Shown here: one piece after another, positions 36,892 through 41,932 of the stretch
How the letters are laid out: every line of letters starts with the position of its first letter
Position numbering within the stretch: the stretch's first letter is position 1
Assembly (NCBI GenBank): GCA_025358085.1
Contig: JANYKT010000140.1
Coordinates: forward strand, 1-64,000
DNA length: 64,000 nt
Direction of reading: 5' to 3'
DNA from: Deltaproteobacteria bacterium
Lineage (GTDB): Bacteria > Myxococcota > Myxococcia > Myxococcales > 40CM-4-68-19
The notes under the pieces: generated by a model
Told to the model about the DNA's origin: nothing
Database searches by the model: none
The model's input: only the letters and a program-made list of their open reading frames with translations
Made by a program: the position numbers and the translations under genes

Positions 36892-36948
36892 CCTGAACGC
36901 CTCCCGCCGGGAAGCTAGCCAGCAGGCAGGCCAGGGGCAACTCTCTTC

Positions 36949-38649
36949 TCAGTGCGGAGAGGCGCCCGCGGAGACGCGCCAGATGGTTCCGTTCGCGTCC
37001 TCGCTGACCAGGAGAGCTCCGTCGCGCGCGACCGCGACGCCGACCGGGCGGCCCCAGACACCGTCTTTGTCGACCACGAACCCGGTGAGAAAGTCTTCAT
37101 ACTCGCCAGTCGGGATGCCGTCGTGCAGCAGCACGCGCACGACCTTGTAGCCGGTGCGGCGCGCGCGATTCCAGGAGCCATGAAAGGCGGCGAACCCGTC
37201 CCCGCGATATTCAATCGGAAAAGTCGCGCCGTCATAGAAAGTCATCTGCAGGGAGGCGGAGTGCGCCTGGACCAGCACGTCGGGCATCGAGACCTTGCCT
37301 TTCAAATCAGGACGGTCCCCTTTGAGCCGCGGGTCTTCGTGGTCGCCGAGCCAATACCAGGGCCAGCCATAGAATGCGCCTTCGCGCACCCGCGTGATGT
37401 AATCCGGTAGGAGATCGTCGCCCATCCCGTCGCGCTCATTGGTTGAGCACCACAGATCGCCCGTCGTGGGATGCACCGCGAGGCCGACGCAGTTGCGCAG
37501 GCCGGTGGCGAAGATTGCGCCATTCTTGCCGTCGGGGTCGAAGACCAATACGTCGGCGCGGCGCTCTTCTTCGCCCCAGGCGGCGCCCAGCGTTTTGATC
37601 TGGCCGAGTTCCTTTGCTGCCCGCTTCGGCATTTGCTCAGCGACGTTCGACTCCGACCCGACCGAGACAAACATGCGCTTGCCGTCGCGCGAAAAGGCGA
37701 GGTCGCGCGTCCAGTGGCCGCCGCTCCCGCTGGCAAGCTTGCTCACGACGGTCTCGCGCGGGCCGCGGGCGGCGAGGTCACCTGCTCGATAAGCAAAGCG
37801 CAAGACCGCATTGCCTTCGCCGATATAGACCCATTGCGGATTTTCGCGCGGATAGAAAGCAATGCCGAAGGGGCGGTCGAGGTTTTTTGCGAAGATCTCA
37901 TTGCGCTCGATGGTGGCGCCCCTGGAGCGCAGTACACGGATGCGGCCGGCGGCGCTCTCGGCGATGAAGATGTCCCCATTGGGTGCGACGCGCAGCTCGC
38001 GCGGGGCGTCCAGGTCCTTTGCCAGGAGCTCGACGGTAAAGCCGGCCGGCGCGATTGGCTTCTTGCCCGCCGGCGGGTCCACCACGCTTGGGCCATTGTG
38101 CGCCGAGGCGGTCGCGAAGGGCGCAGGGAGGTCGTTCAGTGTGATGCGGCGACGGACGCCCGGTGCATCGGTGGTGAAATCGCTGAGTGCGGCGGCGCCC
38201 GCGCGCACCGCCAGCGACGGCTTTGCGGGAGCGCCACCGGTTGCGCCTGCGCGCTCTACGCTCTCCACCGGAGTCGCCTCGACCGGTGTGGCGCGCAGCG
38301 TTTGCAGATACGCGACGACATCGCGGCGCTCGGCCGCCTCCGGGACGGGGACGAGCATGGTTGTTCCTGGTACCAGTCGCGTTGGGCCGGAGAGGAACCG
38401 ATCGAGCGTGGCCGGGTCCCAAGTGAGCCCGCTCGCGCGCAGCGCTCTGGAGTAGCCGAACCGCGGCCCGCTGGCTGCCTTCCTTCCGACGACGCCGCCG
38501 AGTCCGGGCCCTTGCGCGCTCGCGCTGGTGCCCAGATGGCAGACCGCGCAGCGCTGCTTGAAGAGAACTTCACCGCGGGCGGCGGAGGAGCCGTCGGCAG
38601 GCCTGCTGCAGGCGGCCAGAACGAGCGCGAACGACAAGGCGAGTCTCAT
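36949..38649 (-). CDS. Cytochrome c / PQQ-type sugar dehydrogenase lipoprotein
   Basis: LVLAACSRPADG lipobox, CAVCH haem site, FTVELLAKDLDAPRELRVAPNGDIFIAESAAGRIRVLR, HPTTGDLWCSTNERDGMGDDLLPDYITRV. ATG 38649; ORF opens at 38997. Confidence 0.88.
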   Translation of the reverse strand: MRLALSFALVLAACSRPADGSSAARGEVLFKQRCAVCHLGTSASAQGPGLGGVVGRKAASGPRFGYSRALRASGLTWDPATLDRFLSGPTRLVPGTTMLVPVPEAAERRDVVAYLQTLRATPVEATPVESVERAGATGGAPAKPSLAVRAGAAALSDFTTDAPGVRRRITLNDLPAPFATASAHNGPSVVDPPAGKKPIAPAGFTVELLAKDLDAPRELRVAPNGDIFIAESAAGRIRVLRSRGATIERNEIFAKNLDRPFGIAFYPRENPQWVYIGEGNAVLRFAYRAGDLAARGPRETVVSKLASGSGGHWTRDLAFSRDGKRMFVSVGSESNVAEQMPKRAAKELGQIKTLGAAWGEEERRADVLVFDPDGKNGAIFATGLRNCVGLAVHPTTGDLWCSTNERDGMGDDLLPDYITRVREGAFYGWPWYWLGDHEDPRLKGDRPDLKGKVSMPDVLVQAHSASLQMTFYDGATFPIEYRGDGFAAFHGSWNRARRTGYKVVRVLLHDGIPTGEYEDFLTGFVVDKDGVWGRPVGVAVARDGALLVSEDANGTIWRVSAGASPH

Positions 38650-40004
38650 CAGAATCGATCCACTTTCTTGCCGGAGAGAAGCTCGCTGACGGTGAGGATC
38701 TGGATCCTGGGACGCATGCCCGCCCGCGAGGTTGCATGGCCCTGTCCGGCCGCCTCTGCCCGCATCTGCCGCGTCACTTCCCTGAGCGTAACGAGCACTC
38801 CCAACTCTGCCTTTTCCCGCTTTACGACCTGACCGAAGTCGCGCACGTTCCTGACCGTAACGGCTCCGGAATTGACCGATAAGAGGGCCTGCCCTGGAGT
38901 GCCACTCTTGTCGTCGAAGGTCAGCCTGCCGGCGATGCCAATGTCCTCTTTCCCGGGCCCCGCCGTACGGGCGCCCAGGAGGCCGAGTGCCCAGCACTGG
39001 AAGTCGAAGCTGTCTGCCTGTGCCAGCGCCTCGGCGTCAGCCAGGCTGACCGGCCCTCCCACGACACGAAAGGAGTCGAGCGCAAACGAGTTCCGCAATC
39101 GATATCGGATCAAGTTGATTGAAAGATGCGAAATGTCGATACCGATCCATCTCCGGCCCAGATTCTGCGCGGCGGCAATGGTCGTTCCGCAGCCGCTGAA
39201 TGGGTCCAGCACCACGTCATTCTTGTTGGACGAAACCGAGATGATCCGTTCAAGCAGCGCTTGCGGTTTCTGGGTCATGTAGCCGAGTTTTTCCTGCGAG
39301 AAACTCTTGATCCACGGCGAGTAGAGCGCGACGTCGTCCCAGACATCGTCGAGCGCGACACCCAGGGTATTGCCGCCGCCCCCGCGCCGTTGGTAGCCCG
39401 CCTCATGCGGCTGGTAGGCCAGCTCCTTGTTGAACACCGGCTCCTTCTTTCCGTCGCGCCGGTAATAGAGCAGCGTGTCGTGGTTGCGGATCCAGTTCCG
39501 GGTCCGGGTCTTGAATCCAGAGACCCATCCGCTGCGCCAGATGATCTCGCGCCTGAAGTTCTGCGGGCCGTAGATCGCGTCCATCAACACTTTCAGATAG
39601 TGACTCGCCGACGCGTCGCAATGCAGGTAGATGGAGCCGGTTGATTTGAGTACCCGCCGCAGCTCCACCAGGCGCGGTCCCATCATGGCTAGATAGGCGA
39701 GCATATCTGAGTCGCCCAGCAGAGCGCGGAACGCGAGCATGGCTTTGGCTGCGGGCCCTCCCGCCTCGACAGTCTCGCCATAGGCCCGGGAAGCGTCTTC
39801 GTCCCAGCGCCAGGTATCCTTGAATGCCTTGAATCGAGTGGCCGGGCGCGTCCCGTCCTGTTGTTCGAACAAGACGTCGTAATTCTGATTGCTCTTGAAT
39901 GGAGGGTCCAGATAAACGAGGTCGACGCTTTGGTCGGTGACGTGCCGGCGCAGCACGTCCAGGTTGTCGCCATGAAACAGTGTGTTCGGGCCCATCGCGG
40001 CCAC
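38649..40004 (-). CDS. Beta-class DNA methyltransferase with C-terminal Mrr-like (degenerate) nuclease domain
   Basis: Motif IV LVYLDPPFKSNQNYDVLF, motif I DVVLDPFSGCGTTIAAA; C-terminal EDIGIAGRLTF...ALLSVNSGAVTVRNVRDFGQVVKREKAELGVLVTL...RPRIQILTVSELLSG. Confidence 0.9.
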   Translation of the reverse strand: MAAMGPNTLFHGDNLDVLRRHVTDQSVDLVYLDPPFKSNQNYDVLFEQQDGTRPATRFKAFKDTWRWDEDASRAYGETVEAGGPAAKAMLAFRALLGDSDMLAYLAMMGPRLVELRRVLKSTGSIYLHCDASASHYLKVLMDAIYGPQNFRREIIWRSGWVSGFKTRTRNWIRNHDTLLYYRRDGKKEPVFNKELAYQPHEAGYQRRGGGGNTLGVALDDVWDDVALYSPWIKSFSQEKLGYMTQKPQALLERIISVSSNKNDVVLDPFSGCGTTIAAAQNLGRRWIGIDISHLSINLIRYRLRNSFALDSFRVVGGPVSLADAEALAQADSFDFQCWALGLLGARTAGPGKEDIGIAGRLTFDDKSGTPGQALLSVNSGAVTVRNVRDFGQVVKREKAELGVLVTLREVTRQMRAEAAGQGHATSRAGMRPRIQILTVSELLSGKKVDRF

Positions 40005-40021
40005 TCTGCCACACTGGGCTT

Positions 40022-41932
40022 TTAGTCCTCGATGGACTGCTGTCCGCGCGCCGCCTCGATGAGCAGGTCCACCATCTTCTCCGCCAGCGCGCTCGAGGTC
40101 GGCAGCGCCTCGTGATAAGTGCGCCGCACCGCGGCCTCGCGGCGTGGGTCCAGCACGGCTTTACCCGTCTGCTTCTTGCTCTCGCCAATCACCCGGGCCA
40201 CCTCGAGCCGGCGCTGCACCAGCGCGGCCAGATCGTGATCGATCGCGTCGACCCAGGCCCGCAGCTGCGCCAGCGGCAGCCGCGCGTCGGGCCGCAACGC
40301 CAGCGCGCGCGCCAGCTCGGCGAAGCGCTGCGGGATCAGCGCCTGGTCCGCATCGCAGAGAGCGCGCGCCGGGTCGTCGTGCACCTCGACGATGATGCCG
40401 TCGGCGCCGGCCGCCCACGCCGCGCGCGCGAGGCCTTCCACCAGGTCAGCCCGCCCTGCCGCGTGCGACGGATCGGCGATCAGCGGCAGATGCGTCAGCG
40501 CGCGCGCCGCCAGCAATCCTCCGATATCCAGCGTATTGCGCGTGGACGGCTCGAAGGTGCGGATCCCGCGCTCACAAAGAATCACGCGCAACTCTCCGGA
40601 AGCCATGACGTACTCAGCAGCTCCCAGCCATTCATCCACCGTCGCGCCCGCGCCCCGCTTGAGCAATACCGGCCGCCCGGCCCGGCCCACCGCGCGCAAC
40701 AGGTCGTAGTTCTGCATATTGCGCGCGCCGATCTGCAGCACGTTCGCGTGCTCGGCAACCGCGGCCACCTGATCGACCGCCATCACCTCAGTCACGATGG
40801 GCAGGCCCACCGCCTTGCCCGCCTCGACAAACCATTTCAATGCTTCGAGGCCGTAACCCTGGAATGCATACGGGTTGGTGCGGGGCTTGAAGATCCCGCC
40901 GCGCAGCGCGGTCGCCCCGCAGGCTGCCACCTCGCGCGCGATGCGCATCACCTGCTCCGGCGACTCCACCGTGCAGGGACCGGCGATGACCGCGCGCGCC
41001 CCTGCGCCAACGCGGAACGGCCCCACCTCGACCACCGTCTGCGGCTTGCGCGCCGTGGCGTGGGGCAGCGACTTGACGACAGGTTCGGCGCCCGCCTTGC
41101 CGGCAATGCGAGCCGCGTGCGCCGCCGGCTGGCCGAGCGAGACAACCTGCACGTCCCGCGCGGGCGCCAGCTGTTGCAGCCTGGCGGCGTCGGCGCCCAG
41201 TACCCAGAGCCGCACCGGGAACTCGGCAGTGCCGGCGAGCGGCAGCAGCGTCGCGCCGGTGAGAACGTCCAGCTTCGAAGTCGCGGTCATCGAGGAGGTC
41301 CGCAGAAAGGCGAGCGGGACCTGCGCGCGCGCGTGGTCCGCCATGCGCAAGTGAACGAAGCGAGTCCCGTTCTGCTCCTTGTCCGAGACGTCCTCGACCA
41401 AAACCTCGAGCCCATGCCGCTCGGCGGCGCGGCGCGAGCAGATGGCAGCGTCGGTGGACGAGTCGGCCGCGACGATCTGCGCGGCACCCGCGGTGTCGTA
41501 ACAGACGACCCGCTCGATACCGAGCGCGGCCAGCCTGCCGGTGCATTGCCGCAGCGCCGCGGGATGCGACCAGGCGCGCTTGACATCATTGAGCGGAGTT
41601 CCCTTCCGCACCGCCAGCGCCAGTCTCACCGGCACCGAGGTCAATGCGGTCGCCACCAGATCAAAGCCGCTCACCACCGCAACCGCGAGCGGCTCCAGCG
41701 CTTCGGTAATGGCGCCGACCACCGCGTTCTCGAGTGGGAGCACCGCCTCGTCGACGGCTCCCTCGCGCAGCGCCTCGAGCACTTTTTCGAAGCTGGCGAA
41801 TCCTTGCGGAATGCCGCCGTGCGCGGCCGCCGCGGTCTCGCCATAGGCGCCGGGCTCGCCTTGGTAGCCGACCTTCAACTCGGTCGCGGGACGCGTCTCT
41901 TCGGCCTGGCTTCCCTCAATTTCGCGCAGCAT
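40022..41932 (-). CDS. Prephenate dehydratase - DAHP synthase (AroF type) - chorismate mutase fusion
   Basis: PDT GYQGEPGAYGETAAAAHGG...NGTRFVHL; DAHPS GPCTVESPEQV, GGIFKPRTNPYAFQGYG, CERGIRTFEPSTRNTLD, LIADPSHAAGR; C-terminal AroQ-like LRAWVDAIDHDLAALVQRRLEVARVIGESKKQTGKAVLDPRREAAV. Confidence 0.92.
   Translation of the reverse strand: MLREIEGSQAEETRPATELKVGYQGEPGAYGETAAAAHGGIPQGFASFEKVLEALREGAVDEAVLPLENAVVGAITEALEPLAVAVVSGFDLVATALTSVPVRLALAVRKGTPLNDVKRAWSHPAALRQCTGRLAALGIERVVCYDTAGAAQIVAADSSTDAAICSRRAAERHGLEVLVEDVSDKEQNGTRFVHLRMADHARAQVPLAFLRTSSMTATSKLDVLTGATLLPLAGTAEFPVRLWVLGADAARLQQLAPARDVQVVSLGQPAAHAARIAGKAGAEPVVKSLPHATARKPQTVVEVGPFRVGAGARAVIAGPCTVESPEQVMRIAREVAACGATALRGGIFKPRTNPYAFQGYGLEALKWFVEAGKAVGLPIVTEVMAVDQVAAVAEHANVLQIGARNMQNYDLLRAVGRAGRPVLLKRGAGATVDEWLGAAEYVMASGELRVILCERGIRTFEPSTRNTLDIGGLLAARALTHLPLIADPSHAAGRADLVEGLARAAWAAGADGIIVEVHDDPARALCDADQALIPQRFAELARALALRPDARLPLAQLRAWVDAIDHDLAALVQRRLEVARVIGESKKQTGKAVLDPRREAAVRRTYHEALPTSSALAEKMVDLLIEAARGQQSIED

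Follow-up and report, generated by a model that had tools for sequence, protein, structure and literature searches.

Probable disarming of a fused modification-restriction enzyme into a solitary adenine methylase with a pseudo-nuclease tail

The window (the whole stretch of DNA analysed here, 64,000 nucleotides from a Deltaproteobacteria bacterium) carries on its reverse strand a gene for a DNA methyltransferase (MTase) that ends in a Mrr-like nuclease domain. The gene, its parts and its two neighbours are as follows:

36949..38650, (-) strand: cytochrome c / glucose-sorbosone dehydrogenase gene, downstream, overlapping the MTase stop (Pfam GSDH and Cytochrom_C; synteny)
38649..40004, (-) strand: gene for an adenine MTase with a C-terminal Mrr-like pseudo-nuclease (ORF, 451 aa)
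39090..39986, (-) strand: beta-class MTase domain, residues 7-305 (motif order, conserved columns, fold matches)
38652..39062, (-) strand: C-terminal Mrr-like PD-(D/E)XK domain, residues 315-451 (AF2, Foldseek, Pfam)
38931..38933, (-) strand: codon 358, GCC (Ala); Asp (GIDG) in all full-length homologues (family alignment)
38871..38873, (-) strand: codon 378, AAT (Asn); Lys ((S/Q)VK) in all full-length homologues (family alignment)
38649..38669, (-) strand: short C-terminal tail, 6 residues past G445 (family median 33)
40022..41932, (-) strand: fusion of prephenate dehydratase, DAHP synthase and chorismate mutase, upstream, at the edge of a variable slot (Pfam, synteny)

The tail from which the original prediction started (38650-38975, residues about 344-451) is the C-terminus of the ORF 38649-40004 (-). 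Judging from the starts of homologues, translation may in fact begin at the ATG at 39995 and not at the GTG at 40004. The stop codon TGA and the ATG start of the following gene overlap (TGATG). The frame is open over 451 codons with a GC3 of 0.77, which is normal for coding sequence; a frameshift or truncation behind the odd motifs of the tail is ruled out, as the frame is open and the flanks align. The ORF matches the N6_N4_Mtase profile with E=4.7e-40, and the predicted fold of its MTase domain matches those of CcrM, M.BceJIV and M.MboIIA in structure comparison. In the alignment, motif IV (DPPF, 33-36) is followed by a variable target-recognition region (about 157-235) and then by motif I (DPFSGCGTT, 267-275). 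By this order, with motif IV ahead of the target-recognition region and motif I (FxGxG) behind it, the protein is assigned to the beta-class N6-adenine DNA MTases. Homologues of the complete MTase-Mrr protein occur in genomes, phages and plasmids.

The homology of the tail to Mrr-like nucleases, as originally proposed, is correct, because the isolated C-terminal domain passes the Pfam cut-offs of both Mrr_cat (25.6 bits, cut-off 21) and NA-iREase1 (34.7 bits, cut-off 27) and because its modelled fold matches solved nucleases. AlphaFold2, with an input of 50 alignment rows from which the rows of named phage and plasmid records were left out, predicted a PD-(D/E)XK superfamily fold with a mean pLDDT of 93.4 for this domain. 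The top solved match in Foldseek was MspJI (4f0p; E=6.6e-4, probability 1.00); EcoO109I and BamHI were among those that followed. A PDB sequence search with the C-terminal profile yielded one chance match only, and a fold search was needed. In the model A358 opens one strand and N378 closes the following strand. The C-terminal domain is thus predicted to be of the Mrr-like PD-(D/E)XK type and to be folded though devoid of catalytic residues. The NA-iREase1 match itself is ruled out as a sign of inactivity, since 49 of 50 aligned family members produce it and nearly all of these are intact.

Relatives were gathered from 84,980 genomes (75 loci), viral contigs, the window's phylum, and named phages and plasmids, and further from 401 genomes belonging to the same taxonomic family as a Sphingomonas relative. 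The scan patterns did not contain the catalytic motifs, so that intact copies were not selected for. The resulting non-redundant alignment comprises 142 full-length proteins (the window protein and 141 homologues from bacteria, phages and plasmids). GIAG falls on GIDG and SVN on (S/Q)VK in this alignment, and both D358 and K378 are present in each of the 141 homologues and replaced in the window protein only (A358, N378). The predicted replacement of an acidic residue and of the lysine is hereby confirmed. The serine of SVN, which had also been read as a departure (from QVK), is no loss: it is the commonest residue at this position (S in 106/139, Q in 31/139). In a wider census of C-terminal domains, Asp and Lys were found together in 162 rows (some of them repeat fetches), both residues were substituted only in the window protein and its re-fetched copies, and every other row without one of the motif columns comes from a truncated, deleted or frameshifted copy and is no counterpart of the window protein. 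A second dead case was not found among 31 further Sphingomonadaceae domains, all of which are intact. With the Asp of GxD and the Lys of (Q/E/S)xK both absent, the protein does not appear to belong among the active Mrr-like nucleases.

The loss is targeted. Out of 20 C-terminal columns conserved at >=95%, the window protein keeps 17, and the three departures are D358, K378 and L390 (to Phe); two of three therefore concern the catalytic pair. Three random departures over 20 columns would hit both catalytic ones with a chance of 18/1140 (about 0.016). In the MTase part 66/69 conserved columns are kept, the changes being mild (N43D, Q57R, F145Y). An overall decay of the C-terminal domain was not seen in pairwise identities, its divergence by this measure not being unusual (rank 47 of 142). 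In a branch-length test with fixed topology, the window protein's own branch has 0.76 changes per site in the C-terminal domain vs 0.48 in the MTase. The ratio of 1.59 compares with a family median of 0.84 (rank 106 of 113), i.e. the domain evolved about 1.9-fold faster than typical. This mild acceleration agrees with relaxed constraint. Taken with the short tail and the conserved columns, it fits a domain on which selection for nuclease function was lost while the fold was still largely kept.

No nuclease or cognate restriction enzyme was found beside the MTase, the scanned neighbours being metabolic, FHA and glycosyltransferase genes. The intact MTase motifs and the lack of a separate restriction endonuclease (REase) adjacent to the gene accord with the original reading as a solitary methylase. 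A prophage or defence island setting is not supported; the genes around the MTase have housekeeping functions and belong to a conserved block. The one-chain fusion of prephenate dehydratase, DAHP synthase and chorismate mutase (40022-41932) is conserved across the bacterium's taxonomic family, mostly at 74-84% identity. Between this gene and a glycosyltransferase lies a variable slot (36915-40022). In three genomes of the same taxonomic family the slot looks different: in G002 the upstream gene is followed by an EamA transporter and then by the two glycosyltransferases, G003 has a similar ORF (probably an EamA transporter), and in G007 a glycosyltransferase stands almost directly after the upstream gene. 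Since these slots have other or almost no content, the pair of MTase and dehydrogenase (GSDH) is a lineage-specific occupant. An orthologue of the MTase was not found in 11 genomes of the same taxonomic family. Members of the protein family are present in three genomes of the same order, and those in the 142-row alignment have both catalytic residues.

The closest aligned homologues are about 54-58% identical to the window protein, and no close relative has the dead form. Intact members occur singly in a Sphingomonas chromosome, in phages and on plasmids. On the Cellulosimicrobium plasmid pTL2A (L205:2837-5761) the gene immediately upstream of an intact member is annotated separately as a restriction endonuclease. 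The nuclease was also lost elsewhere in the family. Three members (L036, L185, L188) are without most or all of the nuclease domain and a fourth (L067) has a deletion across the Asp motif; these losses are independent, arose through deletion or truncation, and in two cases are found on viral contigs. From these four cases it follows that the MTase can persist alone and that loss of the nuclease with the MTase kept happened repeatedly. The window protein is the only case found in which the loss came about by point substitutions and the domain is, by prediction, still folded. In its target-recognition region the window protein most resembles the Sphingomonas clade (51-53% vs a median of 24%), and from this likeness it may share the target site of that clade. 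Viral contigs were searched for the target-recognition stretch of the window protein, and none carried it.

By full-length homology and identical domain order, the protein is placed in the single-chain MTase-Mrr family (PHROG 67 'DNA methyltransferase'), to which it shows roughly 40-58% identity over the aligned length and which includes Mycobacterium phage Dori gp42, Streptomyces phage TagePhighter gp50 and M. japonicum pMLa MAFF_RS35095. In the other full-length members examined GIDG and (S/Q)VK are retained, and the tail at the C-terminus is usually longer than in the window protein. With the orphan beta-class adenine MTases of the CcrM type it shares the beta-class fold and the absence of an adjacent nuclease. 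CcrM also has an extra C-terminal domain; unlike in CcrM-type orphans, the C-terminal domain of the window protein is of the PD-(D/E)XK type and nuclease-derived. The iREase domains (Pfam NA-iREase1) are likewise of PD-(D/E)XK type without catalytic residues, and the window domain matches their profile. NA-iREase1 is named for its association with NACHT, whereas a NACHT domain was found neither in the MTase protein nor in the seven neighbouring genes scanned. MspJI has the same nuclease fold, with a Mrr-like PD-QxK catalytic domain, and differs in being modification-dependent and in its SRA-like domain (PMC12707154). Type ISP enzymes also combine MTase and nuclease in one chain, but they consist of an N-terminal Mrr-like nuclease, a translocase and a gamma-MTase (PMC3874165).

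The scenario which best accounts for these data starts from an ancestor in which a beta-class N6-adenine MTase and a presumably active C-terminal Mrr-like nuclease formed a one-gene modification-restriction enzyme, which is also what the intact members look like. On the lineage to the window bacterium, two point substitutions (D358A and K378N) would have disarmed the nuclease, with the MTase retained and the dead domain still folded. The present protein would be a solitary (orphan) adenine methylase that marks its target on the host's chromosome but does not restrict DNA, and the pseudo-nuclease would survive as a structural or DNA-contacting tail. As the usual catalytic site is absent, the protein should methylate without cutting. 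We consider it probable that a fused modification-restriction enzyme was disarmed in this way and became a solitary methylase whose tail is a pseudo-nuclease. The 'solitary methylase' of the original prediction is a conclusion that we also infer, and its other reading, a 'methylation-directed binder', is no more than a possibility.

A sub-case of the disarming scenario is that the dead domain acquired a new job: it would bind DNA, perhaps at methylated or paired sites, and perhaps thereby tune target choice or processivity or block other proteins. The kept fold and the 17/20 kept columns, with the catalytic pair and one Leu-to-Phe as the only changes, point in this direction, and REase domains without activity have been described as a theme in conflict systems (PMC10853773; Pfam NA-iREase1). 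The faster evolution of the domain and its shortened tail leave strong selection for such a role questionable, however, and we hold a new job to be possible but doubtful. An early stage of decay, in which loss of the nuclease came first and the gene as a whole is turning into a pseudogene with the MTase no longer under selection either, would likewise explain the short tail, the faster C-terminal domain and the occurrence in a single genome with no orthologue in the same taxonomic family. It is difficult to reconcile with a frame that is open throughout with normal GC3, and with an MTase that kept nearly all of its conserved columns although its own branch accumulated about 0.48 changes per site; we regard it as unlikely. 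That the nuclease is still active via moved residues, e.g. D354 (which is kept) together with K394 of the window protein (which sits where the alignments have mostly Glu), is highly improbable: the family conserves D354 in addition to D358, so that it is no replacement, and K394 is placed by the model near the far end of helix 384-396, an unlikely site for a catalytic lysine. A sequencing or assembly artefact is scarcely credible, for although each substitution is one base from the family codon (GCC from GAC at codon 358, AAT from AAG/AAA at codon 378) and the dead form comes from one draft genome of 217 contigs which could hold errors, two independent errors at exactly the only two catalytic codons are very improbable, and the sequence around them is clean, with an open frame.

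A common explanation of orphan methylases is that they are relics of restriction-modification systems which lost their nuclease. If the disarming scenario holds, this relic step is readable inside a single protein, with the MTase intact, the nuclease fold present and the catalytic pair alone gone. The window protein is a clear and unusual case of a familiar evolutionary route, not a new kind of system. We tentatively suggest, as a less likely extension, that selection maintains the disarmed domain as a DNA reader without catalytic activity which steers or gates the MTase; if true, a DNA methylase would have domesticated a restriction nuclease as its regulatory module. Comparison with the intact Sphingomonas relatives, whose target-recognition region is the most similar, could reveal a non-cutting role of the fused nuclease domain.

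Two other Mrr_cat domains were found in the genome (G000:C186:71243-71584, L227:613-2709; and G000:C213:14748-15086, L228:1171-1881), one of them fused to a HARE-HTH domain. Judged by eye, both seem to be without the canonical GxD...xK residues, and all three Mrr-like domains of this genome may be inactive.
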